Made by a program: the position numbers and the translations under genes. Under the pieces are notes generated by a model. That model searched no databases. It had not been told where the DNA came from and saw nothing but the letters and a program-made list of their open reading frames with translations. Positions 6,348 to 35,292 of a stretch of 64,000 bases of DNA are shown in pieces. The stretch's first letter is position 1. The number at the start of each line of letters is the position of its first letter. The stretch comes from Myxococcus stipitatus (GTDB lineage: Bacteria; Myxococcota; Myxococcia; Myxococcales; Myxococcaceae), in the NCBI RefSeq assembly GCF_038561935.1, contig NZ_CP102770.1:2976001-3040000 (forward strand), in the 5' to 3' direction.

Positions 6348-6525
6348 TTTCCCTCTAGAGACGTAAAGGAGCTTAGCAAAATGGGCTTCTTTCTGTTCAC
6401 TGTGAGTGAATGAGATTTCGATCTTTTTAGACCTATTACGTCGTTCAAGTCAGAAAGGGCTGGCAGTACCTTGAGTCTGCCTTTGCGCGAATCCCTCTCG
6501 CGCGGGCACTCGGAGCTTCCTGCCC

Positions 6526-13082: not shown

Positions 13083-14708
13083 CTACGGCGTGGGCGGCAT
13101 CGCGCAGCTCTGGCCTGAGCACGAGCAGGTGTCCACGCACCCTCGCAGCAATGACCACATCTGCTCGCTGACCATCTCCGTGCGGTTCCCGCCGTTCTGG
13201 TTCGCACCATGGCTCGCTGGGACGCGACCCAGCGGCGCCTGGGTATCGTGGATGCAGGACCCCTGACCATCGGGCCCGAAGTCCACGCCGTAGCGGTCCC
13301 ATGTGGTGACCGGGGCGCAGACGTCCGGCTGCGTCCAGGCACCCACGTTCACCCAACGGTCGGTGTACTCGAGAATGGTGGCGCGGTTCGCCGCGGGCCA
13401 CGCCTGGGCGAGCGCGGGCATCAGACGCATGAACAGCCCCGTGTACTGCGTGGGCTTGGCCGTGTTGTCCTGGTACGCACCTCCCAGCTCGCCTCCGCCG
13501 TCGATGAGGCCATAGGGGTCACGGATGGTCTTGGTCGAACCCGGGGGCTGGGCCAGGTCCGCCCAATACTCTTCCTCGGAGCCCGCCTCCTGGCCCCACA
13601 GGGCCACGCCGTTGACGCCGCGGTAATAGCTGCCCGTCTCGAAGAACTCCTGTCCCTGGGCCTGGGCCAGGTCCGCGAGCATCTCCGGAGCCTGGAGCAT
13701 GGCCGCCGCGAAGGCGTAGTTCAGGAGCTTGCCGCCACCGTTGCCACCACCGCCGCGCCAGAAGCTGCTGCCCATCTTGTGGTTGGCCCAGACGTCGATG
13801 CCGTGCTGCACCAGCGCGACGAGCACCTTCTGCTTGGCGGCCAGGTCCTGTGCCGCGGAGCAGGGGGCGGTATCACAGACGTCACCCATGTTGAGCCAGG
13901 CGTACAGATGCGTGTCGTACATCCACATGTCCGTGGCCCAAGGACGGCCATAGGGGATGTTGTCCTCCGGAGGCGTGAGGTCGCACACCACGGAGTCGTT
14001 CGTGTAATCCAGGCGCAGGCCCCGGACCCAGGACTCCGCCTCCGTGCGGTTGACCACCTCTGTGAACTGCGAGCGCGGAATTCGCGAGAGGAACTGGGTC
14101 TGCAATTGGTCCGTGGTGAAAGTCGGCTTGTAGGTGCCCACATACGGTGGACGGAACGTCTTCGCCGGATTCGCTGGCGCGGCAGCCACCACCGTGAGCG
14201 CGGCGGCAAAACGGCCACAGGACTTCTCGCCCACCGCGTCACAATCACCCGAGGGATTGTCGGACACGTACTTGACGACGGAGCTGCCGGCGGACGCCGC
14301 ATAGGGGAACGTGAGCGTCTTGTACCCTGTGCTGCTCAAGCGCTTGTCCCAGGGGACCGCGTTGAGGCCCGAGGGATTGACCGCCACGCCGTGACGCCCG
14401 GTGACCTTGGGCGTGATGTCGGTGAGGGTGACCTTCCCGCCCACGGTGGCAGGACTGACGAAATACTCCCCCGTGACGTATTGGCCACAGGCATAGGCTT
14501 GGTTGAACCGGAAGGTGATGCTGTTGGCGGCTCCGGAGGGGGCTGTGACACGCAGGCAGGGGCCTGTGGTGTCCGAGGTGATGGTCCCCGGGTTGCCCGA
14601 GCAACCACAGGCGGCCTGGGCGTCTCCTGGCAGCACGACGAGCAATCCAGCCAGGGAAATGGCCGACAAACAGAATCTTTCCATCCACTGCATGGAACGT
14701 GACGACAT
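13083..14708 (-). CDS. Secreted protein of unknown function
   Basis: 541 residues from ATG 14708, preceded by AAGGGAGAGC. A signal peptide is clear: MERFCLSAISLAGLLVV near residues 9-25, with cleavage after DAQA. The first mature region is Cys-containing and beta-rich (ACGCSGNPGTI; GPCLRVTAPSGAANSITFRF). The second region is helical with many Trp and Tyr residues, such as YGRPWATDMWMYDTHLYAWL, DVWANHKMGSSFWRGGG and QMWSLLRGCVDTCSC. This resembles an extracellular polysaccharide-active alpha/alpha-toroid, but no named family is recognised. Divergent from the SDR region across a long gap. Confidence 0.7.
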   Translation of the reverse strand: MSSRSMQWMERFCLSAISLAGLLVVLPGDAQAACGCSGNPGTITSDTTGPCLRVTAPSGAANSITFRFNQAYACGQYVTGEYFVSPATVGGKVTLTDITPKVTGRHGVAVNPSGLNAVPWDKRLSSTGYKTLTFPYAASAGSSVVKYVSDNPSGDCDAVGEKSCGRFAAALTVVAAAPANPAKTFRPPYVGTYKPTFTTDQLQTQFLSRIPRSQFTEVVNRTEAESWVRGLRLDYTNDSVVCDLTPPEDNIPYGRPWATDMWMYDTHLYAWLNMGDVCDTAPCSAAQDLAAKQKVLVALVQHGIDVWANHKMGSSFWRGGGGNGGGKLLNYAFAAAMLQAPEMLADLAQAQGQEFFETGSYYRGVNGVALWGQEAGSEEEYWADLAQPPGSTKTIRDPYGLIDGGGELGGAYQDNTAKPTQYTGLFMRLMPALAQAWPAANRATILEYTDRWVNVGAWTQPDVCAPVTTWDRYGVDFGPDGQGSCIHDTQAPLGRVPASHGANQNGGNRTEMVSEQMWSLLRGCVDTCSCSGQSCAMPPTP

Positions 14709-17507: not shown

Positions 17508-17822
17508 ATGTCGAAGCTGGTTGAGAGTGAAGAGTGGTTCCAGGTCGCCGAGGCGTTTGAAGCGAGCGGCCTGACGCAAAAGGAGTTCTCCGCGCAGCGC
17601 GGGTTGAGGCTTAGCACGCTGCAGTCGTGGGTTTACCGGCGCCGACGTCAGCGGAGCAGGAAGGCCCCCGCTGTGAGACTGTTGCCGGTGGAGGTGGCGA
17701 GCACGACGCAAGCGAGCGCGGCGATGCTCGAGATAGTGCTGCCCGGCGGAGCGCGAGTGAGGTTCGCCCCAGGCACCGACGTCGGGTACGTGGCCCGGCT
17801 CCTCACGGCGCTGGGCAGGTGA
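17508..17822 (+). CDS. tnpA: IS66 accessory protein TnpA
   Basis: 104 residues. An HTH segment, FEASGLTQKEFSAQRGLRLS, is followed by LQSWVYRRRR and a basic linker. The C-terminal part, LEIVLPGGARVRFAPGTDV, is typical of IS66 TnpA. It is followed 4 bp later by tnpB. It assists transposition; its exact role in the family is not established. Confidence 0.9.
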   Translation: MSKLVESEEWFQVAEAFEASGLTQKEFSAQRGLRLSTLQSWVYRRRRQRSRKAPAVRLLPVEVASTTQASAAMLEIVLPGGARVRFAPGTDVGYVARLLTALGR

Positions 17823-17826
17823 GCGC

Positions 17827-18192
17827 GTGTTCACCCTGCCTGCGTCCGTGCGCGTGGTGTTGGCCACGGAGCCAGTGGACATGCGCAAGTCGATTGATGG
17901 GTTGATGGCCCTGGTGCAGTCGGGGTGGGGAGAGGACGTGTACTCCGGGCACCTCTTCGCCTTCGTCTCGCGCAGAGGGGACCGCATCAAGGTGTTGGCG
18001 TGGAGTCGTGGCGGATTCGTGCTGCTGTACAAAAGACTGGAGACGGGGCGCTTCCGGTTGCCCAAGGTGGAGACCGAGGCGCGGACGGTGGCGCTGGACG
18101 CGACGCAGTTGGCGATGTTGCTGGACGGCATCGACGTGGCCGAAGTCCGACGCCCGTCTGCCTGGGCACCTCCCGGCCGCCCGGCCTCCTGA
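17827..18192 (+). CDS. tnpB: IS66 accessory protein TnpB (IS66 Orf2)
   Basis: 121 residues from GTG 17827. The family signature is plain: VVLATEPVDMRKSIDGLMAL, then DVYSGHLFAFVSRRGDRIKV, and KRLETGRFRLPKV. Its C-terminus overlaps sequence that is also open in the tnpC frame. It is required for transposition along with TnpA and TnpC. Confidence 0.92.
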   Translation: MFTLPASVRVVLATEPVDMRKSIDGLMALVQSGWGEDVYSGHLFAFVSRRGDRIKVLAWSRGGFVLLYKRLETGRFRLPKVETEARTVALDATQLAMLLDGIDVAEVRRPSAWAPPGRPAS

Positions 18193-18238
18193 CGGCCCGG
18201 CGCGGGCGCGGGGAGCGGCAGCGCGGTATGGGCTGGAG

Positions 18239-19747
18239 GTGCCTCGAGAGCTGCCGCAAGACCACTTCTGCCCCTGGCGCGAGGAAGCCGAGGAGCTGCG
18301 TGAGCGGATGACTTCGCTGGAGGCGAAGATGGCGGCGTTGGAGCGCCGCGTCTTCGGCAAGAGGACGGAGAAGCTGCCGCCCGTGGCCCAGGAGCTGAAG
18401 GCCCGCCAAGACTCCCCAGAGGAAGAGCGGGCCCGGGCGGCAGCGGCCCTCCGGACGCGACGCGCACGAGCGGCCCGCAAGGCCGACGCCGCGGTGGAGC
18501 GTGAAGTCAGGCACGAAGTCCCCGCCGAAGACAGGCACTGCCCGGCCTGCGGCAGCGAGGAACTCAATCCCCTGGGGGAGGGGCGCCGGACGGTGGTGTA
18601 CGAGCACGTGCCGGCCTTCTTCGAGAAGCAGGTGCACGTGCAAGAAGTGCTGGCGTGCACCTGCGGCCGAGGTGTCGTCACCGCGCCCGCGCCACCCAAG
18701 GTGGTGGACAAGGGCGAGTACGGCCCGGGTCTCCTGGCACACGTCGTCGTCTCCAAGTGCGCGGACGCCATGCCGCTGCACCGCCTGGCACAGCGGATGG
18801 AGCGGGGCGGAGTCCCCATGAGCCGCAGCACGCTGACGGACCTCTTCCACCAGTCGGCCTCGGCGGTGCGGCCTCTGTCCTCGTACCTCTTGCAGCGCAT
18901 TGCCTCGGCCGAGGTGGTGTGGGCTGACGAGACGCCGCTGCGCGTGCTGGACGTGAAGAAGACGCGCCGAGGCTACCTCTGGACGTTTCTCACCCAGACG
19001 CCCCAGAGCGAGTGGCTCATCGGCTACCGCTTCAGCCTGGGCCGCGCGGGCAAGACGCCCAAGGACGTGCTGGGCGGCACCACGGGCGCGCTCGTGGTGG
19101 ACGGGTACACCGGCTACAACGCGGTGACACTGCCGGAGGGCCGCACGCGCGTCGGCTGCTGGGCCCACCTGCGCCGTCGCTTCTTCGAGGCACTGCCCAC
19201 CGCGCCTGAGGCCCGGGAGGCGATGGACCTCATCCTGGAGCTCTACCGGGTGGAGGCCCAGGCGCGGGACGCGGGCCTCGTGGGCACTGCGGCGCATCGC
19301 GCGTTGCGCCAGGAGTCCAGCACTCGCGTTCTCGTGCGTCTGCGCACGTGGCTCGAAGTCCAGACGCCGCGCCACCCGCCGAAGAGTCCGCTGGGGCAGG
19401 CTCTCTCCTACGCGACGAAGCAGTGGGAGGCGCTCACCCGCTTCGTCGAGGACCCGCGGCTGCCCTTGGACAACAACCGCTCGGAGGCGGCGTTGCGAAA
19501 GGCCGCACTCGGCCGCAAGAACTTCCTCTTCGTCGGACACGAAACCGCTGGCGAGAATCTCGCGGGTCTCTACGCGCTGGTCGCTACCTGCGAGGCCAAC
19601 GGCGTCAACCCCGAGGCGTACCTGGCTGACGTCCTGCTCCGCGTCCAGACGCACCCGAACTCGCGCATCGCGGAGCTGTTGCCTCACGAGTGGAAGCGTC
19701 AGCAGACCACCGGTCCGCCCGAGTCACGCTTCCAGCCCCAGCCCTGA
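18239..19747 (+). CDS. tnpC: IS66 family transposase TnpC
   Basis: About 502 residues from GTG 18239; the start is uncertain and ATG 18308 is also possible. It has an N-terminal coiled-coil (LRERMTSLEAKMAALERRVF), a zinc-finger-like CPACGSEELN region with a later CTCG, and a DDE domain with WADETPLRVLD, LVVDGYTGYN and LDNNRSEAALR (last catalytic Glu). The ending, NSRIAELLPHEWK, is typical of the family. It is full-length and shows no lesion, so it may be functional. Confidence 0.92.
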   Translation: MPRELPQDHFCPWREEAEELRERMTSLEAKMAALERRVFGKRTEKLPPVAQELKARQDSPEEERARAAAALRTRRARAARKADAAVEREVRHEVPAEDRHCPACGSEELNPLGEGRRTVVYEHVPAFFEKQVHVQEVLACTCGRGVVTAPAPPKVVDKGEYGPGLLAHVVVSKCADAMPLHRLAQRMERGGVPMSRSTLTDLFHQSASAVRPLSSYLLQRIASAEVVWADETPLRVLDVKKTRRGYLWTFLTQTPQSEWLIGYRFSLGRAGKTPKDVLGGTTGALVVDGYTGYNAVTLPEGRTRVGCWAHLRRRFFEALPTAPEAREAMDLILELYRVEAQARDAGLVGTAAHRALRQESSTRVLVRLRTWLEVQTPRHPPKSPLGQALSYATKQWEALTRFVEDPRLPLDNNRSEAALRKAALGRKNFLFVGHETAGENLAGLYALVATCEANGVNPEAYLADVLLRVQTHPNSRIAELLPHEWKRQQTTGPPESRFQPQP

Positions 19748-20136: not shown

Positions 20137-22677
20137 TCATTCGAGGGGTTCGTCGAACTGCTTTCCTCGACCTGATTGCACCCAAGAGGCCAGTCTGGAG
20201 TCGATTGTCTTCTGCGTCTTCATTGCTGGAGCATCCGAATCAGGAATTGATATTAATTCCAAGTCGCGCCGAAGGACATACTCCTTCACTTGGCTCATCA
20301 TCTCGGTTTCTACTGCCTGAACAGCAGTGAAATCCCGTCGACGAAGAGCGAGATTGCGGCGATCAGACTTTTCACGTAGCGCGGTTAGCTCATCTTCGTC
20401 AAAAATCTGAACGTCGTCACACATGGCTAGGCCATACTGGACTGAGGTCTCGACCCATTGTCTATGGAGGCGGCCAGAAGACGAGAGCTTAACGAACTTC
20501 ACTGTACTAGAACCGGAGCCGTCAAAGTCGGGACCAAGTGATCCGAGGTCGTAAGGCTCGAGTAGGCCAGAATACAGGAGAGCACCTAGAGCCTTATCCG
20601 TTGAAGACCGTGGCACACCGAGAGTTGAAAAAAAAGACAGCAGCCCTTCAACCGACTCGAAGCCCTTGTCAGCCTTGGTTGTTTCCTGGTTGCGCAACTC
20701 GTAACAGCGCATTAGCGTGCGGAACCCAAGCAGTGGGCTAATCGCGGCCTCACGCGGGCAGCAAAATAGATTGCACACCCTGCGAGAGCGGTCTTGACTG
20801 AACTGCTGCCAGTCTCCAAGAAAGACAGCCCTCTCATACGCAGTTCGTCCAAGACGATAATTGCCGTCGGAGAGGTAGGCTGCGAGGAGTTTGTCGAGGT
20901 CTATTTGTGGCGATGATACACATATTTCGAAGAGTCTAAGCGCCTCACGAATATCTCCGGTAGCCAGCATCGCCATCGAGCGCGAAATGTAGAGGTCTTT
21001 CGTGAATGTTTTATGCAGTGTGTGTAGCAGTTCTGCCGGGTTTTTGATTCCAATTCTGAACCCCCGGAGCGACCTGATGGATGTCTTGTCTCCTTTGCTT
21101 AGTTCGCCAATGGCAAACTCAAACCGCCTCTCGAGTACTTTTGCCAAGGCGGGACGCGGTAGGTATAAGATTGTATTGCGAATTGCGTGAAAGGCGCTTT
21201 GCTGTCTGGCGCGCCAATAGGTCGTGTCGCGCATTGGTAGCAATAGAAGCATTCTTCCCAGGCCGGCGGTCCATTGTGCCTGTAGGAATGCAACACTTTG
21301 GAACTCGTCGTTGAAGTGATCTGCGTTGTCGAAGATTACGCACAGCAACTTCTTTCGCGACCAGCGGATGTGACGAAGCAACCTTCGGAGATAGCCCTCT
21401 TGGTCCTGTACCGACTTTTCCAAACGTCTGCCGAACTCAATGTTGAACTCTTCGGGGCGTGACTCCTTTAGGGGCTTCAATGGACCGCGCGCCAGGGCCT
21501 GATATTCATCAAAAAAGATTCCTTTGAGCTCATCGTAGCTTGGACTGCCACCTTTGAAGAGTCGTTGCTGGATGGCAAGCAAGGTCTGGCTCTTCAAATA
21601 ACCAGGAAGCGCCTTTGGATCCGGGTCGGCCTTCGACAAGTCGATATGGATAACAAGACACTTCTTCTTGACCTCACCGGGGAGTTTCTGGGCGAAGAAT
21701 GAGTCCACAAAAGTGGATTTTCCTGATCCGTGCTGTCCGAGGAGTAATACGGTCGTCCCAGGGCCGTCTTCTCCGAGGGACACGTCGGTGGCCTCCGCTG
21801 CGACGAGTTCACCTAGGCGGTCCCCTTGTCCGGCTGCTCTCGTATCAAGCGGCTCAATGTCCTCTGTCAGTTCTGCCGCGATCCGCTGGAGGCGTGAGTC
21901 TGCTTCGATGCTCTCATGGGTCTCAACAAAGCAGGCACGAAGTGCTTCAGGATTGTGAGAACTAGACAAGCCCTCAAAGACCTCCTTCAGCACTGGCGCC
22001 AGAGCCTTGGCTACCTCGGAGCGCTTTCGCTGTCGATCCTGCCCGCGCACGTCGATGAGCCGCTTTGATGTTCCCTCCGTCGGCTCCGCGATAACGCCTT
22101 CTTCACGCAAAAACGGTCGCCTAAAGAGACCGGAGCGGACATTGGGCTCAGCTCCAACCTCGAAGAACAACTTGAACAGCGTTGCTTCGCAGATCTCATC
22201 CAAAGATCTAAACACCAAGATTGACGATGCTTCCTTGCTGATTCCGTCAGTCCTACTGCCCAAGAGAAATACCCACTGGAGCCCCGTTGTGGCACATACT
22301 AGCCCACAACCCCATCGGGCAGCGTATGTCTCTGCCTGATCAATCGTTGACTTCAGCGGTTCAGACCTAGCTACTGGTCCGCTCCTCTTGTACCAGCGAG
22401 CATCGGTTGCAGGAATTCCAAAATCGATTGAACTTCGTTTTGCTTCAACGATGGCGTGTTCAGTGGATGCTGATAGACGATAGTCTAGTCTATCGCCATT
22501 CTCGAATGTTTCTCGTTCAATCTGGGCGGGCCGCCAACCAAGAACGTCGGCAAGAACTCTGTCGATAATCAGCGCTCTGGTGTCGGCTTCAGTTTGCACT
22601 TCTGGAGGGCGTGCATAGAATTCACTGCGCATGGCCAACAGTGCTGCATATGCTCTGTCGATATAGGTATTGGTCAT
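20137..22677 (-). CDS. PD-(D/E)XK nuclease fused to P-loop NTPase, candidate defence protein
   Basis: 846 residues from ATG 22677. Residues 1-140 look like a type I restriction HsdR_N-type nuclease: LIIDRVLADVLGW, then NGDRLDYRL (Asp65) and HAIVEAKRS (Glu78-Ala-Lys80), the D...ExK pattern. A P-loop NTPase follows: GQHGSGKST (314-322) and KLLCVIFDNADHF (443-455, Walker B). A long helical C-terminus has no recognised domain. The gene is visibly more A/T-rich than its neighbours, which suggests transfer. It sits between IS elements and a DISARM operon on the opposite strand. The likely role is nucleic-acid cleavage gated by ATP in defence, but the function is not known. Confidence 0.75.
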   Translation of the reverse strand: MTNTYIDRAYAALLAMRSEFYARPPEVQTEADTRALIIDRVLADVLGWRPAQIERETFENGDRLDYRLSASTEHAIVEAKRSSIDFGIPATDARWYKRSGPVARSEPLKSTIDQAETYAARWGCGLVCATTGLQWVFLLGSRTDGISKEASSILVFRSLDEICEATLFKLFFEVGAEPNVRSGLFRRPFLREEGVIAEPTEGTSKRLIDVRGQDRQRKRSEVAKALAPVLKEVFEGLSSSHNPEALRACFVETHESIEADSRLQRIAAELTEDIEPLDTRAAGQGDRLGELVAAEATDVSLGEDGPGTTVLLLGQHGSGKSTFVDSFFAQKLPGEVKKKCLVIHIDLSKADPDPKALPGYLKSQTLLAIQQRLFKGGSPSYDELKGIFFDEYQALARGPLKPLKESRPEEFNIEFGRRLEKSVQDQEGYLRRLLRHIRWSRKKLLCVIFDNADHFNDEFQSVAFLQAQWTAGLGRMLLLLPMRDTTYWRARQQSAFHAIRNTILYLPRPALAKVLERRFEFAIGELSKGDKTSIRSLRGFRIGIKNPAELLHTLHKTFTKDLYISRSMAMLATGDIREALRLFEICVSSPQIDLDKLLAAYLSDGNYRLGRTAYERAVFLGDWQQFSQDRSRRVCNLFCCPREAAISPLLGFRTLMRCYELRNQETTKADKGFESVEGLLSFFSTLGVPRSSTDKALGALLYSGLLEPYDLGSLGPDFDGSGSSTVKFVKLSSSGRLHRQWVETSVQYGLAMCDDVQIFDEDELTALREKSDRRNLALRRRDFTAVQAVETEMMSQVKEYVLRRDLELISIPDSDAPAMKTQKTIDSRLASWVQSGRGKQFDEPLE

Positions 22678-23379: not shown

Positions 23380-23688
23380 ATGTCCACGACGATGCCGAGA
23401 CGCGAGCGCAGGAAGTACACGCCCGAGTTCAAAGCCCGGGCCGTGAAGATGGTGCTGGAAGAGGGCAAGTCCCGGGCGCAGGTGGCCAAGGACCTGGACC
23501 TGACTCGCAGCGCGCTGGAGGCTTGGATGAGGCAGTCGCGAACGGACGCGGGCCAGGGGTCGTCCGGGGCGCTGACGACGGGTGAGAAGGAGGAACTCGC
23601 TCAGTTGCGCCGCAAGGTGCGCCAACTGCGGATGGAGCGGGAGATACTAAGAAACGCGGCGGCCTTCTTCGCCAAGGAGAGCACGTGA
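23380..23688 (+). CDS. IS3 family transposase OrfA
   Basis: 102 residues. N-terminal RRKYTPEFKARAVKMVLEEG and AQVAKDLDLTRSALEAWM form the helix-turn-helix of the IS3 transposase_8 family. A leucine-rich coiled coil, ELAQLRRKVRQLRMEREIL, ends with RNAAAFFAKEST. It overlaps orfB by 4 bp; in this family the two frames are usually joined by a -1 frameshift. Confidence 0.92.
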   Translation: MSTTMPRRERRKYTPEFKARAVKMVLEEGKSRAQVAKDLDLTRSALEAWMRQSRTDAGQGSSGALTTGEKEELAQLRRKVRQLRMEREILRNAAAFFAKEST

Positions 23689-24560
23689 GGTTCACGGCCA
23701 TCCAGGAGGAGAAGGCGAACTACCCGGTGGCGATGCTGTGCCGTGTGCTGGAGGTGTCCCGAGCGGGCTACTACGCCTGGGAGGGACGTGAAGCGGCGGC
23801 ACGCCAGAAGGCCAATGCGGCGCTGGTGGAGCGAATCCAGCAGGTGCATCAGGACAGCCGCCGCACCTATGGCAGCCCACGCGTCCAGGCTGAGCTGAAG
23901 GCCCAGGGGCTGCCCGTGGGCCGGCACCGCGTGGCCCGGCTCATGCGCGAGGCAGGGCTCCGCGCTCGTCGACGCAGACGGTTCGTGCACACCACGGACT
24001 CCAAGCACCGCCTCCCGGTGGCGCCCAACGTGCTGGCTCGCGACTTCAATCCACCAAGGCCCGACCGGACGTGGGCGACGGACATCACGTACGTGCCCGC
24101 GCGGGAGGGCTGGCTCTACCTGGCAGTAGTGCTGGACCTCTTCAGTCGGCGCGTCATCGGTTGGGCCATGGACCGCTGCATCGACCGGCACCTGGTGCTT
24201 TCGGCTCTCGACATGGCGCTCAAAGGTCGCTGTCCCCCAGCGGGACTGCTGCACCACTCGGATAGGGGCAGCCAATACGCCAGTGAGGACTACCAGCGAG
24301 CGCTGGCCGCCCGCGGCATCCGGTGCAGCATGAGCCGCAAGGGCAACTGCTGGGACAACGCCGTGGTGGAGAGCTTCTTCTCCACGCTGAAGACAGAGCT
24401 GGTGCACGACGCGGACTTCTCGACGCGCGAGGCGGCGAAGGGTGGCTTGTTCGAGTTCATTGAGGTGTTCTACAACCGCAAGCGGCGGCACTCCTCACTT
24501 GGCTACGTCAGTCCCGCCGAGTTCGAGAAGACCGCCTCGCAGGTGCCACTGGCTGCTTAA
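23685..24560 (+). CDS. IS3 family transposase OrfB (rve integrase core)
   Basis: 291 residues from GTG 23685. The HTH_21 region is around SRRTYGSPRVQAELKAQGLP. The DDE integrase core has TWATDITYVPAREGWLYLAV (first Asp), LLHHSDRGSQYAS (second Asp) and CWDNAVVESFFSTLKTEL (Glu). The C-terminal YNRKRRHSSLGYVSPAEFE is typical. It is full-length and shows no lesions. Confidence 0.93.
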   Translation: MRFTAIQEEKANYPVAMLCRVLEVSRAGYYAWEGREAAARQKANAALVERIQQVHQDSRRTYGSPRVQAELKAQGLPVGRHRVARLMREAGLRARRRRRFVHTTDSKHRLPVAPNVLARDFNPPRPDRTWATDITYVPAREGWLYLAVVLDLFSRRVIGWAMDRCIDRHLVLSALDMALKGRCPPAGLLHHSDRGSQYASEDYQRALAARGIRCSMSRKGNCWDNAVVESFFSTLKTELVHDADFSTREAAKGGLFEFIEVFYNRKRRHSSLGYVSPAEFEKTASQVPLAA

Positions 24561-24836: not shown

Positions 24837-27800
24837 GTGCCAATCGCTCCCACGCCGTGCGCAGGTGATATCGCGCAGGTCCGACACCGTCAGTATTTGG
24901 TCAACGAGGTCATCGCTCCTTCGGATGTCCGGGAGCAACACACCCTCGTGCGTCTCACGTGTCTCGATGATGACGCACAAGGTCGAGCCCTGTCTGTCTT
25001 GTGGGAGCGTGAGCTCGCCGCTCGGGTCATTCGACCCCACCAGGGTGGACTGGGACCTCCTGCGCGTTTCGACGAGCCCCGCCACTTCGCCGCGTATCTG
25101 CACGCGCTCAAGTGGAGCTCCGTCACCGCCACCGACGCCCGACTCTTCCAGGCGCCGTTCCGCGCGGGCATCCATTTGATGAATCACCAGCTCACGCCTC
25201 TCAAGAAGGCGCTCGAGCTGCCTCGGGTGAATCTCTTCATCGCTGATGACGTGGGTCTCGGAAAGACCATCGAGGCGGGGCTGGTGCTGCAGGAGCTCAT
25301 CCTCCGCCAGCGCGTGGACCGCGTCCTCATCGTCTGTCCGGCGTCGGTGACGCTCCAGTGGCGCGATGAGATGGAGAAGCGCTTCGGTCTGCGCTTCGAA
25401 ATCTTCAACAGTGAGTTCGTCTCCCGCCGCCGTCAGGAGCGCGGCTTCCAGGTCCCCGTCTGGGCCACGCACTCACGCTTCATCGTGTCGTACCAGACGC
25501 TGCGACGCAGCGAGTACTTCGAGCCGCTGAAGACCCTCCTGGAGGAGAAGGGGCACCACAAGTCCTTGTTGGTGCTCGACGAGGCACACGTCGTCGCGCC
25601 CGCATCGGCCAGGCGGTACGCCATCGACACGGAGACCACTCGCAGCATCCGCTCACTGGCGGAGCGCTTCGAGCACCGGCTCTTCCTCTCCGCGACGCCC
25701 CACAACGGCCACTCCAACAGCTTCTCCGCGCTGTTGGAGATGTTGGACCCACAGCGCTTCACGCGAGGCACCCGCGTCCGCGAATCCCAGCTGGCTCCCG
25801 TCATGGTGCGCCGGCTCAAGGGCGACCTTCGCGCCCTGGGCAGTTCACAGCGATACCCCGAGCGACACGTGGTGGGCGTGCGGCTGACGCATGACTCGGG
25901 GCGCTGGCACGCCGAGTGGCTCGCCCCGGATGGGAAGACCGTCGAGCAGCGTGTCGACCTGGGCGAAGCCTCCGCCCCGGAACTGGAGCTGTCCCAGAAG
26001 CTCGCGCGCTACACGGAGCTCATGGCTCCCGGAACGAAGCAGGGTCGCCTCGTCTTCATCAACCTCCAGAAGCGCCTCCTCTCCAGCATCGAGGCGTTCC
26101 ATCGCACCCTCTCCATCCACGCTGTGGCCTTCGGCTCGGGGACGCTGGCTCCTGACGGCGAAGCTCTCACCGGCGACACGGCTCCTGCGTCCGAGGAACA
26201 CGGCGAGACGGACGACGCACTCGAGCTGTCGTTCGCGGAGACCATCCGCGAGCACAGTCAGCATCTGTCCGCCAGCGCCCAGGCACGCAAGCTCCTGGAT
26301 GAGATGCTCGCGCTGAGCGCTCGGCACCGCGCTTCCCGGGACGCGAAGTTGCGGGCACTGCTCCACTGGATTCGCGAGCACCTATGCCCGCTCACCCGAG
26401 GCGCCGAGTGGAAGCCCCGCCGGGTCATCCTGTTTACCGAGTATGGCGACACCCTTCGTTACCTCAAGGCGCAGCTCACCGCCGCCTTCGAGGGGACCCA
26501 TCGGGGGGATGAGCGCATCCTCACTCTGACGGGCGGCATCAATGACATGAAGCGCGCGCAGGTGCAGGCCGCCTTCAACGGCTCGATGGAGGAGTTCCCC
26601 GTGCGGGTCCTCCTCGCGACCGACGCCGCGCGCGAAGGCATCAATCTGCAAGGCCACTGCGCGGACCTCTTCCACATCGACGTCCCGTGGAACCCCTCAC
26701 GCATGGAGCAGCGCAACGGTCGCATCGACCGTGCCTTGCAACCCGCGTCCACCGTGCGTTGTGGCTACTTCGTCTACGGCCAGCGCGCGGAGGATGCAGT
26801 GCTCGACACCCTCGCGCGCAAGGTGGAGACCATCACGCGCGAGCTGGGCAGCCTGGGCTGCGTGCTGATGGACCAGATGCACGATGCCCTCGCCTCGGGC
26901 ATCACGAAGAGCACGATGGAGCGCCTCTCCCGTGCCGCGACCTCGACTCGCACGGAGGTGACGAAGCGGGAGCTGGAGTCCCAGCGCACGCTCCAATCCC
27001 TGCGCAAGGAACTGGATGCGATTGGAGAGCTCCGCGAGCGCAGCGGCAAGGTGATGGACTTCAATCCCGTCCTGCTGCGCGATGCGCTGGACGTGGGGTT
27101 CGAGCTGGCTGGCGCCGGCCGGTTGGAGCGAGAGGCCATCACGGAAGAGGGCCGGACGCTGGAGGCCTGGAAGGTCCCCGCACTTCCCGCTTCGTGGAAC
27201 ACGACCCTGGATTCCATTCGTCCGCGCCGGGAGCAGGACGAGGCAGCGTGGGAGTGGCGCAAGCGCCCCCTGTCTCCCGTCGTCTTCGAGGCACCTCCGG
27301 GCGTTTCCAGCAAGCTCGTCCACCTGCACCTGTCCCATCCGCTCGTCCAGCGGGTGCTCCAGCGGTTCCTGGCGCAGGGTTTCTCCGCGAACGACCTGAG
27401 CCGTGTCACGGTGGTCCAGACCCAACGCGACGCAGTGGCACGCGTCATCGTCTTCGGCCGGTTGTCGCTCTTTGGCGAGGGCGCCGCGCGGCTCCATGAC
27501 GAGGTGGTCTCTGTGTCCGCAAGGTGGCTGGACGGCGGTGGCCGCGGGCACCTGAAGCCCTTCGCGGACGAGGCGGACCGCAAGGTGATTGACCAGCTGG
27601 AGACCACGCTGACGGAAGCGCCCGCGCTCTCCGCGATTCCGAAGGCCGTCCAGAAACGGCTGCTGGCCAGTGCCGAGTCCGACTTCGCGAAGCTCTGGCC
27701 CGCCATCGAGGAACAGGCCGCGGCGAGAGAGCAGGGGGCTCGCAAGAAGCTGGCGGCGCGAGGGGCGACCGAAGCCAAGGCGCTCACTCAAATTCTCCTA

Positions 27801-28031
27801 ACGCAACAGGAGGCCATCCGGGAGGCACTGAGCGCGCAGCTCGAACTCTCGCTCGACGCGCAGGCCGAGAAGGACCAATGGAGGAGGGACAAGGTTCATC
27901 TCGAACAGCGATTGACTGCGCTCGGAAGGGAGCTCGTCGAACAACCTGAATCCCTGAAGGCCACCTACGCCGTGCGGGTCGCCCGCCTGGTGCCCGTGGG
28001 CATGGTCTATCTGTGGCCGGGGGCTCGCTGA
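24837..28031 (+). CDS. drmD: DrmD, SNF2-type helicase of class 1 DISARM
   Basis: 1064 residues from GTG 24837. The N-terminus GDIAQVRHRQYLVNEV and LVRLTCLDDDAQGRAL is the DrmD-specific start. The SNF2 helicase core follows: DDVGLGKTIEAG (about 136), VLDEAHVV (about 247), LFLSATPHNG, and in the second half TDAAREGINLQGHC (about 594) and QRNGRIDRALQ (about 624). A long helical C-terminus completes it. In DISARM, DrmD marks class 1 systems and acts with DrmMI, DrmA and DrmB to restrict incoming phage DNA. The stop overlaps the drmMI start (TGATG). Confidence 0.9.
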   Translation: MPIAPTPCAGDIAQVRHRQYLVNEVIAPSDVREQHTLVRLTCLDDDAQGRALSVLWERELAARVIRPHQGGLGPPARFDEPRHFAAYLHALKWSSVTATDARLFQAPFRAGIHLMNHQLTPLKKALELPRVNLFIADDVGLGKTIEAGLVLQELILRQRVDRVLIVCPASVTLQWRDEMEKRFGLRFEIFNSEFVSRRRQERGFQVPVWATHSRFIVSYQTLRRSEYFEPLKTLLEEKGHHKSLLVLDEAHVVAPASARRYAIDTETTRSIRSLAERFEHRLFLSATPHNGHSNSFSALLEMLDPQRFTRGTRVRESQLAPVMVRRLKGDLRALGSSQRYPERHVVGVRLTHDSGRWHAEWLAPDGKTVEQRVDLGEASAPELELSQKLARYTELMAPGTKQGRLVFINLQKRLLSSIEAFHRTLSIHAVAFGSGTLAPDGEALTGDTAPASEEHGETDDALELSFAETIREHSQHLSASAQARKLLDEMLALSARHRASRDAKLRALLHWIREHLCPLTRGAEWKPRRVILFTEYGDTLRYLKAQLTAAFEGTHRGDERILTLTGGINDMKRAQVQAAFNGSMEEFPVRVLLATDAAREGINLQGHCADLFHIDVPWNPSRMEQRNGRIDRALQPASTVRCGYFVYGQRAEDAVLDTLARKVETITRELGSLGCVLMDQMHDALASGITKSTMERLSRAATSTRTEVTKRELESQRTLQSLRKELDAIGELRERSGKVMDFNPVLLRDALDVGFELAGAGRLEREAITEEGRTLEAWKVPALPASWNTTLDSIRPRREQDEAAWEWRKRPLSPVVFEAPPGVSSKLVHLHLSHPLVQRVLQRFLAQGFSANDLSRVTVVQTQRDAVARVIVFGRLSLFGEGAARLHDEVVSVSARWLDGGGRGHLKPFADEADRKVIDQLETTLTEAPALSAIPKAVQKRLLASAESDFAKLWPAIEEQAAAREQGARKKLAARGATEAKALTQILLTQQEAIREALSAQLELSLDAQAEKDQWRRDKVHLEQRLTALGRELVEQPESLKATYAVRVARLVPVGMVYLWPGAR

Positions 28032-31000
28032 TGAACGGCCAGAACCTTGGCGGGGACGTCGAGCGTCGCTATCACCAGACCTGGATGGGGATGGCGCAGC
28101 CCATCGAAGGACTGGTGGTCTCCATCCCGGTCCTCGAGGACGCGCAGTGCATGCAGCGCCTGCCGGTGTCCGCGCAGTCGCGGTTCGTCCTGCTGGCGGG
28201 CCGGGAGTCACCTCGTGTGACGGATGTCCCGCGCTTCCTCCGAGAGGTGCTGGGCTACACCGAGGATGATTTCACCACGAGCTTTCCGGAGGACCTCCAG
28301 CTCGATATCGCGGAGGGGCAACAGACGCTCAAGCCCACGCGGGGGCTGTTGCGACGAGGTCCTCCTCCCGCGAAGCCCGAAGGGTTGCCGGATGACTCCA
28401 CGCCCATCAGCCGAGCCGCGGAAGGCTTAGCGCTCCTGACCTGGGAGCTGCCGGCCGGGTTGGACCTGGACAAGAAGGAAGACACCACGGGCGCGTGGTT
28501 CTACGAGCCCTCCGCCAAGTTCGACCGCCTCTTGCGCGCGGCCCGTGTCCCTATCGGTCTGCTGTTCAATGGGGACTCCGTGCGACTGGTCTATGCGCCT
28601 CACGGAGAGACGTCAGGGCACATCACCTTCCGGTTCAAGGACCTCGTCACCGCTGGCGGCCGTGCGCTGTTCGACGCGATGGTGATGCTCCTGCACGCGC
28701 GCCGCTTCTTCGGCGTGCTGCCCGAGCATCAGCTTCCCGCGCTCCTGGAGCAATCACGCCGCCGGCAGGCGGATGTCACCGACGAACTGGCCGACCAGGT
28801 CTTGGATGCGCTCAGCATTCTTCTCGCGGGCTTCGAGACGGCCGCTGAGCGCGATGGCTCCCGGGCCCTGGACGAGGCGCTCTCGCTAGGTGAGGAGCAT
28901 GTCTACGGCGGCCTTCTCTCCACGCTCTTGCGGCTCGTCTTCATCCTCTACGCGGAGGACCGGGGCCTTCTTCCCGTGGACCAGGAGCCCTATCGCGATG
29001 ACCTGTCCGTGAAGGCACTTCACGCGCAACTCGTCGAGGACTCCAGCCAATACCCCGATTCGATGAATCGGCGCTTCGGTGCGTGGCCACGATTGCTGGC
29101 GCTCTTCCGGTGCATCTACCTGGGAGCCTCGCACGACAAGCTGCAAATGCCGGCACGGCGTGGACAGCTTTTCGACCCTGATGCGTTCCCCTTCCTGGGA
29201 GGCACGGGCTCCGCCGAGGCGGGCACGGATGCGCGGGTGCCTCCCATCGATGACGAGACGGTGCTCCAGGTCCTGGAGCGACTCGTCTTCCTCAAAGGCC
29301 AGCGACTGAGCTTCAAGTCGCTCGACGTGGAGCAGATCGGCTCCGTGTACGAGGGCCTGATGGGCTTCCATGTGAAGCGCCTGACTGGCGCTGGAATCTG
29401 CCTCAAGCCCTCGAAGGTATGGGTCTCCGCGGACGATGTGCTGGCCCAGCCCGCGAAGCGGCGTGCGACCTGGTTGGAAGGGGAGGCGGGCCTCGACACG
29501 AAGGCGGTACGGGCTCTGTCGAAGTCATTGGAACAGGCTTCGACACAGCAGATGGTCCTGACCGCGCTGGAGCCGTACCGCGTGAAGGGGACCGAGACAC
29601 GGCGAGCCTCCCAGTTGGTACTCCAACCTGGGGACGAGCGGCGACGGACCAGCAGCCACTACACGCCTCGAAGCCTGTCCGCGCCCATCGTCCGACGGGC
29701 TCTGGAGCCTTTGCTCAAGACGATGGGGCCGAAGCCGTCTTCAGAGAGGCTCCTCAACCTGAAGATCTGCGACCCGGCCATGGGGTCGGGGGCGTTCCTG
29801 GTGGAGTCCTGCCGCTTTCTCGCGGACCAGGTTGTAGCCGCCTGGACGCGAGAGGGCGTGCTGAAGCGTGACAAGCACGAGGACGAGGTGATGCGGGCAC
29901 GCCGGCTTGTTGCCCAGCGATGTCTGTACGGTGTGGACAAGAATCCATGGGCCGTGAAGCTCGCGAAGCTGTCGCTGTGGCTCGTGACGTTGGCGAAGAC
30001 GGAGCCCTTCACGTTCCTGGACCACGCGCTCAAGTGTGGGGATTCACTGGTCGGGCTCGACCTGGAGCAGCTTCGAGCGTTCCACTGGGCCCCGACCCGC
30101 GAGAAGCAGTCAGAGCTGTCCTGGGCGTTCATCTCGAAGGCGCTCAACAGCTCGCTGGAGAAGCGCGAGAGGATCCTCCAACTTGCGTTGGAGCTGGAAG
30201 GGCCGGGGCGCAAGCCGTTGCAGTTGGACCTGGAGCCCGGGCGGGTGAAGGAGGGGCTTCTCCATGATGCGGACGTGGCGTTGGCGGACATCAAGCGGAT
30301 TGCCAACGCGTGCGTCGGGGCGTTCTTCGCTCATGGCTCGGACAAGGCGCGGGAAAAGGAGCGCATCCGCCGGTTGGACCTGATTGGGGCGTGGTTGTCC
30401 AAGGCGAAGAATGGGGTTCTGCCTCCCATTCCGGCGGACATCGCTGCGTTCTCCGCGCCGGCATGGACGTTCCACTGGCCGCTGGAGTTCCCGGAGGTCT
30501 TCCACGGGAGTCGGCCGGATCCACTCGACAACGAGCAGCCCAACAAGGCCGCATGGATCGATGGGTTCGTGGGGAACCCGCCGTTTGCGGGAAAGAACGC
30601 GATCATCGAGACGGGCGGAGAGAGCTACCTCCCTTGGCTCCAGGCGGTTCATGAGGGTGCGCACGGAAACACGGATCTCTCCGCGCACTTCTTCCGCCGT
30701 GCGTTCCATCTGCTGGGGGAACACGGCAGTTTTGGATTCATCGCCACCAACACGATTGCGCAGGGGGACACGAGGGTCACGGGATTGAAGTACCTCGTGG
30801 ACCATGGCGGCCACCTCTACGACGCCGTGCGCTCCATGAGGTGGCCGGTGGCTGGCGCCAACGTCTCCGTGGCAGTTGTTCACCTGGCTAAGGGGCGCGT
30901 CTCCCTGAGTTTGGAGCCTCGTTTGGATCGCCTGCCCGTGAAGTGCATCAGCTCGCGGCTACGTGGCAAACCTGAACGCCCGGATCCCGTGGCGATTGGT

Positions 31001-31945
31001 GCCAATGCTGGCAAGAGCTTCGTGGGGACGTATGTCCTGGGGATGGGGTTTGTGCTGAGTCCCGAACAGCGCACAAATCTTGTCTCGAAATCACCAAGGA
31101 ACGCGGCGCGCATCTTCCGCTACGTGGGTGGTGAAGAACTCAATTCCGATCCGAGTCCCGAACTTGAAAGGTACGTCATCAACTTCGGGCAGATGGATTT
31201 GGCCGAGGCAGAGGGCTGGCCCGACCTCATCCGCGTCGTACGGGAATTGGTGAAGCCTGAACGAGACAAGAACAAGCGCGATTCTCGTCGAGAGTATTGG
31301 TGGCGATTTGGCGAGACGACTCCGGCTCTCTATGAAGCACTTCGCCCCATTGCTCGTTGCCTCACGACCTCTCGAGTCTCGAAGCACCTGCTGTTCTCCT
31401 GGCGGAGGTCCTCTATGGTCTTCAGTGAGGGCGTTGTTGTCATTCCAGTGGAGCAAGACCACTGGCTCGCTGTGTTGCAATCACGAGTGCATGAGGTTTG
31501 GGCTCGTTTGCTGTCATCCTCCATGCGCAACGACCTGCGCTACGCACCGAGTGACTGCTTCGAAACCTTCCCATTCCCAGACTCCGCAGGCAGCTCGGCG
31601 CTCAATGCGATAGGCGAACGGCTCCACTTCGAGCGCAGCCAGTACATGCAGGCCCACAGTATCGGCTTGACGACCACATACAACCGGCTCAAGGACAAGT
31701 CCGTCACCGACACAGCGACGCAGCGCCTGCGGGACCTGCACGTGGCCGTGGACCAGTCCGTCCTGGACGCCTACGGCTGGAAGGACATCCAAGCCCCTCC
31801 GTACTTTGGCGCCACCCCCAAACAGCTCGAAGCCTTCGAGGACGAAGTCCTCGACCGTCTCTTCGACTTGAACGCCCAGCGTGCGCACGAGGAAGCCCAT
31901 CCCACCGCCCGTCGTCCCTCGAAGTCCCGCGCCAAGACCGCCTGA
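28031..31945 (+). CDS. drmMI: DrmMI, N6-adenine DNA methyltransferase of class 1 DISARM
   Basis: 1304 residues from ATG 28031, which overlaps the drmD stop. The SAM-binding motif is LKICDPAMGSGAFLVES (about 579-595). The catalytic motif is VGNPPFAGKNAI (about 846), an NPPF adenine-N6 type. N-terminal PIEGLVVSIPVLEDAQ and a helical region precede the methylase, and a target-recognition-like region with YFGATPKQLEAFED follows near the end. Known role in class 1 DISARM: host DNA methylation marking self. All key residues are present. Confidence 0.9.
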   Translation: MNGQNLGGDVERRYHQTWMGMAQPIEGLVVSIPVLEDAQCMQRLPVSAQSRFVLLAGRESPRVTDVPRFLREVLGYTEDDFTTSFPEDLQLDIAEGQQTLKPTRGLLRRGPPPAKPEGLPDDSTPISRAAEGLALLTWELPAGLDLDKKEDTTGAWFYEPSAKFDRLLRAARVPIGLLFNGDSVRLVYAPHGETSGHITFRFKDLVTAGGRALFDAMVMLLHARRFFGVLPEHQLPALLEQSRRRQADVTDELADQVLDALSILLAGFETAAERDGSRALDEALSLGEEHVYGGLLSTLLRLVFILYAEDRGLLPVDQEPYRDDLSVKALHAQLVEDSSQYPDSMNRRFGAWPRLLALFRCIYLGASHDKLQMPARRGQLFDPDAFPFLGGTGSAEAGTDARVPPIDDETVLQVLERLVFLKGQRLSFKSLDVEQIGSVYEGLMGFHVKRLTGAGICLKPSKVWVSADDVLAQPAKRRATWLEGEAGLDTKAVRALSKSLEQASTQQMVLTALEPYRVKGTETRRASQLVLQPGDERRRTSSHYTPRSLSAPIVRRALEPLLKTMGPKPSSERLLNLKICDPAMGSGAFLVESCRFLADQVVAAWTREGVLKRDKHEDEVMRARRLVAQRCLYGVDKNPWAVKLAKLSLWLVTLAKTEPFTFLDHALKCGDSLVGLDLEQLRAFHWAPTREKQSELSWAFISKALNSSLEKRERILQLALELEGPGRKPLQLDLEPGRVKEGLLHDADVALADIKRIANACVGAFFAHGSDKAREKERIRRLDLIGAWLSKAKNGVLPPIPADIAAFSAPAWTFHWPLEFPEVFHGSRPDPLDNEQPNKAAWIDGFVGNPPFAGKNAIIETGGESYLPWLQAVHEGAHGNTDLSAHFFRRAFHLLGEHGSFGFIATNTIAQGDTRVTGLKYLVDHGGHLYDAVRSMRWPVAGANVSVAVVHLAKGRVSLSLEPRLDRLPVKCISSRLRGKPERPDPVAIGANAGKSFVGTYVLGMGFVLSPEQRTNLVSKSPRNAARIFRYVGGEELNSDPSPELERYVINFGQMDLAEAEGWPDLIRVVRELVKPERDKNKRDSRREYWWRFGETTPALYEALRPIARCLTTSRVSKHLLFSWRRSSMVFSEGVVVIPVEQDHWLAVLQSRVHEVWARLLSSSMRNDLRYAPSDCFETFPFPDSAGSSALNAIGERLHFERSQYMQAHSIGLTTTYNRLKDKSVTDTATQRLRDLHVAVDQSVLDAYGWKDIQAPPYFGATPKQLEAFEDEVLDRLFDLNAQRAHEEAHPTARRPSKSRAKTA

Positions 31946-31953
31946 GCCCTCTC

Positions 31954-34900: not shown

Positions 34901-35292
34901 ATCGGGACGCGCTGGAGCAGGCGCTCGAAACCCTGGCGAAGCGCGCGGGTCGAGGGCTGCCCAAGGAGGAGTCGGAGCGCGCCAGTCGCATCGTGATGCA
35001 GCGCGCGCGAAGCCTGCTCGACTCGTGGCGCAACATCATCGAGCAGGCGAAGAAGGACGCCGCCCAGCGCGCGTACTCGCCCTATGACCCGGAGGGGAAG
35101 GGGCTCAAGCCCCTGCTGCGCGGTTTCCTGGACCGCACCGACAACCTCACCCAGGACGAGCTCAAGTTCGATGCGCCCACGTCCATGCGGGACGTGGAGT
35201 CCTCGGTGCACCTGTGGATTTCACGGCAGCCCCTGGGCGGCTACCGCGCCCCGAAGGCAGCGACGGAGGAGGTGGCGCATGACGAACCGTAG
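31954..35292 (+). CDS. drmA: DrmA, DISARM helicase
   Basis: 1112 residues, starting 8 bp after drmMI. Helicase motifs: FFPTGGGKTQAYLG (about 414, Walker A), LIVQDELHLISGPLGSM (about 653, DEAH-like DELH), and in the second half SNMISVGVDIDRLG (about 865) and YIQASSRVGRKM (about 892). A Cys pair (CPWCATPFERECF) lies between. An acidic patch, DDPDDEEDDLAA, is near residue 70. In DISARM, DrmA forms a complex with DrmB that senses unmethylated or 5'-overhang DNA. The last codons overlap the drmB start. Confidence 0.93.
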   Translation: MNVPDTGAVRSHLIDALEADLVGPFRKPPGSPVSDAPEVLRTPPSRWYLTGFLVPLDQGVIEDDPDDEEDDLAAGNDEDHEESSRPDPTAKKVRRLPASMGLSVFVPAGTTQLTAHVCWADYQRIDAESRKHWRRTFHQRTVTLSLRDAALQAGLYLQDSGGLRLEGHVEKTPEGELAVAIFLVNARPPTSTSADRDEAYAFQTHLALECAHGFVSRQDSSDARSEDDDDRVNDLQFRDRQRWAVGHGISVRVPSTSVPITRVETDWLPRVEVLPVEARQIDEVTVGMEQLAAFATPSEAVAALLPLVRTYREWVATQATLAVGSERREETRDELIRRARRAADRIEEGIQLLAREPLAFDAFRWMNSVMAQSERKVRQDEAPRWRLFQLAFILLNLPSVEHEGHADRELVELIFFPTGGGKTQAYLGLIAFTLLLRRLRGQAHLHGGLGVAVLLRYTLRLLTLDQLGRAATLICALEVLRQQEPKRLGAVRFSIGLWVGRSATANTLEQASTQITEYKNDNSARAQSPFPLATCPWCATPFERECFILRPSKSKPEEVLVGCANIACAFNLGRNPEGLPVLFVDEQIYRELPCFLVATVDKFAMLPWRGETGLLFGRALGRTGKRFVGPCDDAADVKAATVTLPKGLPPPELIVQDELHLISGPLGSMVGLYEGAVLTLAPRAKLVASTATVRRSRQQVSRLYGRDVALFPPPGVDASETFFASVGKKGARQYVGVAAPGRPMKAILLRVYVSLLAAAARGEQLHGAASADPYLTLVGYFNSLRELGGMRRLVEDEVRRLVMDRVRRRPEDFSKEAEHPWYRGRTIRGEPIELTSREKTADIKASKNRLELTHGQPQSIDVVLASNMISVGVDIDRLGLMVVAGQPKTTSEYIQASSRVGRKMNKPGLVVTCLNAAKPRDRSHYERFGTYHESFYRFVEATSVTPFSAPALDRGLAGVVVALGRLLDTAMTAPLEWKSLQSHRDALEQALETLAKRAGRGLPKEESERASRIVMQRARSLLDSWRNIIEQAKKDAAQRAYSPYDPEGKGLKPLLRGFLDRTDNLTQDELKFDAPTSMRDVESSVHLWISRQPLGGYRAPKAATEEVAHDEP

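Follow-up and report, generated by a model that had tools for sequence, protein, structure and literature searches.

The gene at positions 20137–22677 (minus strand) of a 64,000-nucleotide stretch of the Myxococcus stipitatus genome was confirmed to represent a real, conserved and mobile single-gene family whose product joins an HsdR-type nuclease to an ORC/Cdc6-type ATPase. The whole stretch, called the window below, covers positions 2,976,001 to 3,040,000 of contig NZ_CP102770.1 (assembly GCF_038561935.1). The resemblance within the family is more than chance because relatives are encoded at 71 genome loci and in 29 plasmid records and because 11 motif residues (E30, D65, E78, K80, Y118, G314, K320, D450, D453, R518 and R577) are invariant in both family alignments, namely in 17/17 rows of A1, drawn mostly from tblastn hits, and in 64/64 rows of A3. 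The family is unnamed, and its probable role is to guard the host, or the element that carries it, against invasion by phages or other DNA. The parts of the gene are as follows.

20137–22677, minus strand: whole gene, 846 residues, ATG start; PHROG 14719 (function unknown)
22078–22677, minus strand: residues 1–200, predicted HsdR/RecB-type PD-(D/E)XK nuclease (family matches, alignment, model)
22438–22485, minus strand: residues 65–80, predicted catalytic D65...E78-x-K80 (invariant in 64/64 and 17/17 rows)
22324–22338, minus strand: residues 114–118, QxxxY motif with Q114 and Y118 (Y118 in all rows)
20872–21822, minus strand: residues 286–602, predicted ORC/Cdc6-clade AAA+ ATPase (Foldseek and VIA fold matches)
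21712–21738, minus strand: residues 314–322, Walker A GQHGSGKST (G314, G317, G319 and K320 invariant in A1 and A3)
21313–21339, minus strand: residues 447–455, Walker B VIFDNADHF (D450, N451 and D453 invariant)
20938–20958, minus strand: residues 574–580, GDIREAL, presumed Cdc6-type sensor 2 (R577 invariant)
20425–20772, minus strand: residues 636–751, probable winged helix (C-terminal model; weak VIA winged-helix rows)
20140–20424, minus strand: residues 752–846, C-terminal helices with no domain assigned (structure models)

The first-pass annotation, made from the sequence alone, had proposed an open reading frame (ORF) of 846 residues fusing a nuclease to an ATPase. The frame is intact, with an ATG start and zero internal stops, and the motifs cited for it (D65, E78-x-K80, GQHGSGKST, VIFDNADHF and the Walker A lysine K320) are all present. 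Both domains of the single protein were supported by family matches, motifs and fold. The gene had also been called A/T-rich, which is accurate relative to its surroundings (53% GC versus 66% across the window) and not in absolute terms. The host genome (10.17 Mb) gave no second match besides this gene.

The suggestion that the architecture is undescribed was supported, as no named family in Pfam, NCBIfam or PADLOC covers it. No Pfam or NCBIfam model matched the window protein above cut-off, the weak matches being mostly generic P-loop models, and the best match in PADLOC-DB 2.0.0 (E 0.0065) extended over 21 residues only. For the 17 family members, the best PADLOC matches were CSD_V (4.1e-8; three members, in the cold-shock part) and mad8 (7.2e-6; five members). 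PHROG 14719 alone, a family without function, matched the window protein (E 5.6e-129, residues 5–775).

Nuclease domain

The N-terminal domain had been read as HsdR_N-like, a reading that the wider family upholds. When the 17 members were scanned singly against Pfam, HSDR_N_2 was found in 8/17 and HSDR_N in 5/17. The window protein itself gave no HSDR match at E ≤ 1 in Pfam, and its nuclease was placed by alignment with the matching members. A family profile matched HsdR 3h1t with an E of 1.7e-4, and the alpha/beta order of the domain was seen in the AlphaFold2 model, which was built from 64 sequences with a mean predicted local distance difference test (pLDDT) of 83.5.

Residues E30, D65, E78, K80 and Y118 are the invariant set of this domain (64/64 rows of A3 and 17/17 of A1), and Q114 is kept in 64/64 rows of A3 and 15/17 of A1. 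For the HsdR subunit of EcoR124I, the available text of PMC4454674 describes Asp151, Glu165, Lys167 and Gln179-Tyr183 as the D...ExK and QxxxY set. With both the D...ExK and the QxxxY elements in place, the domain is predicted to be a PD-(D/E)XK nuclease of the HsdR/RecB type.

ATPase domain

The second domain had been described as a P-loop NTPase. An ATPase is indeed fused to the nuclease, and its fold and motifs correct the assignment to the ORC/Cdc6 clade of AAA+ proteins. The best Foldseek match was archaeal ORC2 (1w5t; E 1.9e-7; template modelling (TM) score 0.23 by query and 0.40 by target), followed by ORC/Cdc6 chains and, lower, by Apaf-1, plant NRC proteins and RdrA. With VIA, in which rows within 1 of each other were treated as tied, 256 residues aligned to the Drosophila ORC-Cdc6 entry 7jgr_G (Z 13.8, root-mean-square deviation 3.8) and 297 to RdrA (Z 12.7, root-mean-square deviation 5.0). 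CED-4 and TnsC scored Z 12.4 each, and NSF-type entries 11.2–11.4.

Family matches were of the same kind: among the 17 members, Pfam AAA_22 was found in 14 and AAA_16 in 13, and TIGR02928 (orc1/cdc6) matched three (best E 1e-7). An nSTAND_NTPase5 match of the window protein fell below cut-off, and STAND proteins are among the fold matches. We take GDIREAL to be the Cdc6 sensor 2, a label that agrees with the fold match. Together, the modelled fold, Walker A, the sensor-2 arginine and a winged helix, the last by weak matches, point to an ORC/Cdc6-clade AAA+ ATPase.

Walker B departs from that clade. Asn451, which presumably occupies the position of the catalytic Walker B glutamate (DExD) of ORC/Cdc6, is invariant in A1 and A3, so that the glutamate expected there is absent. 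An asparagine here is unusual in an ATPase of the ORC/Cdc6 type whose Walker A and sensor 2 are intact. The invariance of DNxD in A3 is partly built in because DNxD was one of two patterns used in the genome scan; the motif is also kept, free of this bias, in A1 and in three genomes found with a profile of the ATPase and C-terminus. The Walker B asparagine suggests a slow ATPase, a switch rather than a motor.

C-terminus and its extensions

The C-terminus, previously left unassigned, is probably in the main a winged helix followed by C-terminal helices; residues 752–846 are still without an assigned domain. Its 255 residues were modelled at a pLDDT of 88.2. The top VIA rows were nearly all winged-helix proteins of the MarR, PadR and TubR types, with a weak best Z of 6.5. 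Foldseek with the C-terminal model returned nothing at E ≤ 0.001, its first rows being MukF, McbR and McrA chains at E 0.15–0.9. No large repeat domain was seen in the structure models of the whole protein or of the C-terminus.

In some relatives, distinct domains that bind RNA or single-stranded DNA are attached to the C-terminus. The Pfam scan, which covered the 17 members of A1, found a cold-shock domain in three and an S1 domain in one. Plasmid members L005 and L006 are annotated with C-terminal cold-shock domains, and the terminal segment of the Desulfocapsa plasmid member L019 is read as the single S1 match. Separately, 14 rows of A3 (953–991 residues) exceed the rest by extensions of similar size and group together in the tree (2 changes versus 13.1 in shuffles).

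Relatives and distribution

By tblastn, relatives were identified in 29 plasmid records, of which 16 had a coverage of at least 80% and 13 are predicted to be conjugative; 18 of the 29 hits were taken as regions and 15 entered A1, while L008 (match in two pieces and frames) and L015 and L018 (each cut short beside an insertion sequence (IS) element) stayed outside it. A single-sequence scan of genome contigs found no relative, and alignment A2 was needed to find the genome loci: the profile-guided scan gave 71, together with six viral-contig loci. Alignment A3 took in 63 of the 71. Excluded were L027 and L058, which run off the contig, L069, L075 and L091, which have stops within the match, and the partial L090; L037, a near-copy, and L072, on a 4.6-kb contig, were omitted by choice. 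When the Klebsiella member was used as a DNA query, 7 of 5,426 complete E. coli genomes matched at about 87.5% identity, and the E. coli protein (WP_001349602, 834 residues) keeps 15/15 motif residues checked.

The family spans at least nine phyla, the tree including Pseudomonadota, Bacteroidota, Cyanobacteriota, Acidobacteriota, Planctomycetota, Actinomycetota, Chlorobiota, Candidatus Omnitrophota and Thermodesulfobacteriota. In this quick tree a long branch leads to the window protein beside a clade of 48 rows, a placement that is unsure. Within this range the family is rare and patchy. Members were found in 3/195 genomes sampled from the phylum of the window and in 3/289 and 4/247 genomes of two other class samples; each sample includes the genome at its centre, and because at most four to five candidates per genome were scored, these counts may be low. 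They include G254 (sample of 289), split over two contigs, and G537 (sample of 247), a C-terminal piece. At E ≤ 0.001, hits occurred in 21/195, 66/289 and 91/247 genomes, most of them short and limited to the P-loop or the nuclease.

The nuclease was fused to the ATPase in all full-length members examined. With a profile built on the ATPase and C-terminus (A6), three new full-length members (L150, L179 and L180) were recovered from the two class samples, and the nuclease motif was present in 3/3, with no swap of the N-terminal effector. Each of the 25 genomes reached through family loci also gave one strong A6 hit; these 25/25 are uninformative on effector swaps because the loci were already known to carry the nuclease.

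These data bear on the idea of an Avs-like immune switch, in which the ATPase and C-terminus would sense a phage protein and oligomerise, whereupon the nuclease would destroy DNA and kill the cell. The layout (an N-terminal effector, an ATPase of the ORC/STAND group and a C-terminal part) would suit such a switch, Apaf-1, CED-4 and plant NRC folds are among the matches, and no recurrent self-protection gene accompanies the family. The C-terminus, however, appears to be a winged helix with helices rather than a large repeat sensor, ORC/Cdc6 rows stand first in both fold lists, though only about 1–2 Z from CED-4, and the three new profile hits, a small sample, showed no effector swap. We regard this switch as unlikely.

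Gene neighbourhoods

Prophages, plasmids and genomic islands carry the family as cargo, and its gene is solitary. The first-pass annotation had noted the lack of an adjacent methylase, specificity subunit or helicase, and this extends to the family: an all-versus-all comparison of 1,104 neighbouring ORFs within 6 kb at 86 loci found no recurrent partner. The commonest neighbour cluster, a tyrosine integrase according to the annotation of its L012 and L013 members, occurred at 12/86 loci and the next cluster at six. No conserved small partner or antitoxin was found, the sole small-ORF cluster in at least three loci being related cyanobacterial flanks. On the same strand, the nearest ORF lay at a median distance of 373.5 bp on the upstream side (n = 82) and of 344.5 bp on the downstream side (n = 74). 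Gene GC was below that of the flanks in 80 of the 82 loci with sufficient flanking sequence (median −9.6 points). A tRNA gene lay within 2.3 kb in 8/46 loci scanned, a count without a control comparison.

Neighbouring ORFs were also scanned by content, the near set comprising 149 of 281 ORFs from 74 loci and the far set 150 of 196 from 55 loci (in list order to L077); ORFs above 900 residues and loci L036, L037, L069, L072, L075 and L090 were left out. At E ≤ 1e-10, near ORFs matched 119 PADLOC families and far ORFs 32, a contrast that is suggestive only because the counts are of redundant models and not of ORFs. The 25 near-ORF families listed include type I restriction endonucleases, ThsB, MzaA, DruM, type II methylases, SoFic and PDC models; the 25 listed for far ORFs include IetA, DpdF, type II methylases and PDC models. 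Among the near ORFs, Pfam found Phage_integrase in 7/149, Rep3 in three, resolvase, IS66 and rve in two each, and many families of ordinary metabolism. Among the plasmid members, L005 lies near a type I restriction locus and L010 near a methylase-endonuclease pair.

Such surroundings could also belong to a selfish exclusion or incompatibility factor, which would serve its plasmid, island or prophage by cutting rival mobile elements. Plasmids, integrases, IS elements and tRNA-adjacent sites fit this explanation, as do the 13/29 plasmid records predicted to be conjugative. It is hard to separate from defence, and 74 of the 86 loci have no integrase-cluster gene within 6 kb, so that many copies are not visibly element-borne. 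We keep it as a tentative alternative.

Cargo slot of E. coli prophages

Of the seven E. coli regions, three were viewed, and in 3/3 the gene lies between DUF977 and hokD in a prophage termed lambdoid-type from its gene order; two of these prophages are inserted at potC and one beside rspB. Pairwise alignment placed the cassette junctions at about 11371 and 14911 of L209, enclosing 3.5 kb with one ORF above 77 residues. The same two junctions enclose other cargo in L211, L212, L213, L214 and L216, agreeing within 4 bases at the upstream junction; at the downstream junction one of the five is offset by 21 bases. The hokD flank matches 4,901 genomes, often in part, and the upstream flank 876; a match extending over at least 80% was found in only seven. 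The slot was surveyed in a spread listing of 40 of 5,355 records, from which nine of the ten non-query rows with a 58–60% flank match were viewed (all except H42). Seven of these nine regions (L211–L214 and L216–L218) have the DUF977-hokD slot, which is sharply bounded and whose occupants vary from prophage to prophage.

One occupant is a YobI-type NTPase, Tmn-like by PADLOC (E 7e-68 over the first 430 of 1,210 residues), and another is a RelA/SpoT protein matching PDC-S33 (E 5.3e-119). In four slots RefSeq annotation alone identifies the cargo: AbiH and DUF4145 proteins, each accompanied by others, in two of them, and HEPN and FRG-domain proteins in the other two. From these occupants it follows that the slot repeatedly carries defence-type cargo and that the nuclease-ATPase family is one alternative; for E. 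coli prophages, the predicted defence setting is supported by the Tmn-like, PDC-S33 and AbiH occupants. As a separate observation, the slot of L213 holds two adjacent proteins of 320 and 333 residues (4828–6807) without PADLOC match, a candidate new defence pair.

The slot also bears on whether the protein works in the replication, partition or repair of mobile elements, its nuclease acting on the element's own DNA. An ORC/Cdc6-like ATPase with a probable winged helix would be at home in that role, and Rep3 genes make up 3/149 neighbouring ORFs. Several plasmid carriers, on the other hand, encode replication or partition functions of their own close by, and a gene that is found in 7 of 5,426 E. 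coli genomes and occupies an exchangeable cargo slot there is an improbable housekeeper of its element.

Surroundings of the gene in the window

The features flanking the gene in the window are as follows.

17508–19747, plus strand: IS66-type element beside the gene (NF033517, E 5.3e-113; PF05717, E 7.9e-37)
17508–17822: part of the IS66-type element without Pfam match
17827–18192: TnpB of the IS66-type element
18008–19747: transposase of the IS66-type element
23380–24560, plus strand: presumed IS3-type element (orfA, orfB) between the gene and DISARM (PF01527, PF00665)
24837–37803, plus strand: DISARM operon (DrmD, DrmMI, DrmA, DrmB, PLD protein), a neighbour outside the system
24837–28031, plus strand: DrmD
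28013–31945, plus strand: DrmMI
31954–35292, plus strand: DrmA
35084–37126, plus strand: DrmB
37117–37803, plus strand: PLD protein

The gene stands alone between the two IS elements, and the DISARM operon starts 2.2 kb away on the opposite strand, an arrangement seen as it had first been described. The IS3-type label is our assumption from the orfA-orfB gene order, and the PLD protein is presumably DrmC, given its position.

The link to DISARM implied earlier did not recur. In 100 homologue loci, DrmD, DrmMI, DrmA and DrmB gave no match at E ≤ 1e-5, and the lone counterpart of the PLD protein was a weak 30% match in L065. The DISARM neighbour looks incidental, and DISARM was rejected as a functional partner. 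If the protein were a restriction subunit orphaned from a type I-like or DISARM system, this would account for the HsdR_N domain, for the DISARM operon 2.2 kb off and for the type I locus near homologue L005. This explanation is already contradicted by the lack of a recurrent partner at 86 loci and by the lack of matches to the four Drm proteins at 100; no superfamily 2 (SF2) helicase domain was recognised in the protein either, and we give the explanation almost no credence.

Elsewhere in the window, an ORF of 497 residues without Pfam match (13209–14702, plus strand) adjoins a polysaccharide deacetylase gene.

Proposed function

Under the preferred reading, a mobile single-gene defence, ATP-bound subunits would assemble on DNA through their AAA+ and winged-helix parts, in an assembly modelled on the rings or spirals of ORC/Cdc6 and RdrA-like proteins. 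Invader DNA, or a structure at replicating DNA, would serve as the assembly site, where the nuclease domains would be brought together and cutting licensed. Since neither a methylase nor an antitoxin accompanies the gene, discrimination of self from non-self would have to rely on DNA structure, replication state or a phage product. The C-terminal cold-shock or S1 domains of some relatives, as binders of single-stranded DNA or RNA, could be an added sensor, and the slow ATPase predicted from the Walker B asparagine might be used as the switch.

A more specific form of this proposal is possible, though we hold it with considerable doubt: an ORC/Cdc6 loader of the replication-licensing type may have been turned into a complete one-protein immune machine that loads at a replication or transcription feature of the invader and cuts with its own HsdR-type nuclease, without a methylation mark. 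The loading feature would be single-stranded DNA, an R-loop or, in the cold-shock and S1 forms, RNA; ATP binding would act as the switch, and the machine would be interchangeable cargo over at least nine phyla.

Several observations weigh against a defensive role or its proposed mechanism. Homologues had been expected mostly in defence contexts, and this held in part: a minority adjoin known defence genes and the E. coli slot fits, while the others examined adjoin mobile-element or ordinary genes. The far ORFs also hold defence models (IetA, DpdF and type II methylases), and the 119-versus-32 contrast is therefore overstated. A same-strand ORF lies within 50 bp upstream in 12/82 loci and downstream in 13/74, and some copies may therefore be in operons. 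Two queries gave 0 matches in 50,697 phage records, though prophage copies exist. In E. coli, two of the nine flank-sharing regions (L215 and L219) lack DUF977 and have other genes, and two of the four slot-cargo proteins scanned gave no PADLOC match. The ORC matches have low TM-scores over the whole chain, the oligomer and the DNA trigger are themselves inferred, and a solitary mobile cargo gene could serve its carrier instead of defence.

The family is testable as a single gene, with a clear predicted active site, natural members in E. coli prophages and a defined cargo slot that known or candidate defence genes, among others, occupy elsewhere. The sensed feature could be approached through the cold-shock and S1 variants. 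If the family is defensive, a nuclease and an ORC/Cdc6-type ATPase alone would tell invader from self without methylase, guide or antitoxin, and a family missed by the defence and protein-family libraries tried would be added.

Comparison with known systems

No title or opening of an abstract naming the family was found in a literature search that excluded subscription papers, preprints and supplementary tables. The 42 validated DefensePredictor systems could include it, as far as the available part of PMC13092281 goes. The near full-length match to PHROG 14719 names the family without explaining it, as that entry carries no function.

The available text of PMC10853773 gives ORC/CDC6-family ATPases a central place in conflict systems, describes mobile ORC/CDC6 neighbourhoods with nucleases, and states that in prokaryotic relatives of CR effectors the ORC/CDC6-clade ATPase tends to carry a C-terminal restriction endonuclease. 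The present family shares with those CR-type proteins the pairing of an ORC/Cdc6-clade ATPase with a nuclease of restriction-endonuclease fold, for which a conflict role was proposed. Judged by that description it is set apart by being one solitary gene and by its order: an N-terminal HsdR/RecB nuclease, then the ATPase and a probable winged helix, where theirs has the endonuclease at the C-terminus.

Type I HsdR, exemplified by EcoR124I in the part of PMC4454674 consulted, has the same nuclease elements, D...ExK and QxxxY. Here the ATPase is a different one, no helicase family was found above cut-off in the window protein (Pfam, NCBIfam and PADLOC), and no methylase or specificity subunit recurs across the 86 loci. 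RdrA of RADAR has an ORC/Cdc6-like AAA+ fold within a defence protein (VIA Z 12.7) and, according to the accessible text of PMC9994260, forms a heptamer and works with RdrB. In the present family, by contrast, the nuclease is built in, and no partner that could be the RADAR deaminase RdrB recurs in the 86 loci, in which RdrB was not searched by name. BrxC and DUF499, of BREX and BREX-related systems, are described in the available text of PMC12839542 as ORC/Cdc6 ATPases followed by winged helices, the order seen here; they act in multi-gene systems, whereas this family is one gene. The known kind, then, is the ORC/Cdc6-plus-nuclease protein, and what is new here is an N-terminal HsdR-type nuclease in a one-gene family that lies outside Pfam, NCBIfam and PADLOC.

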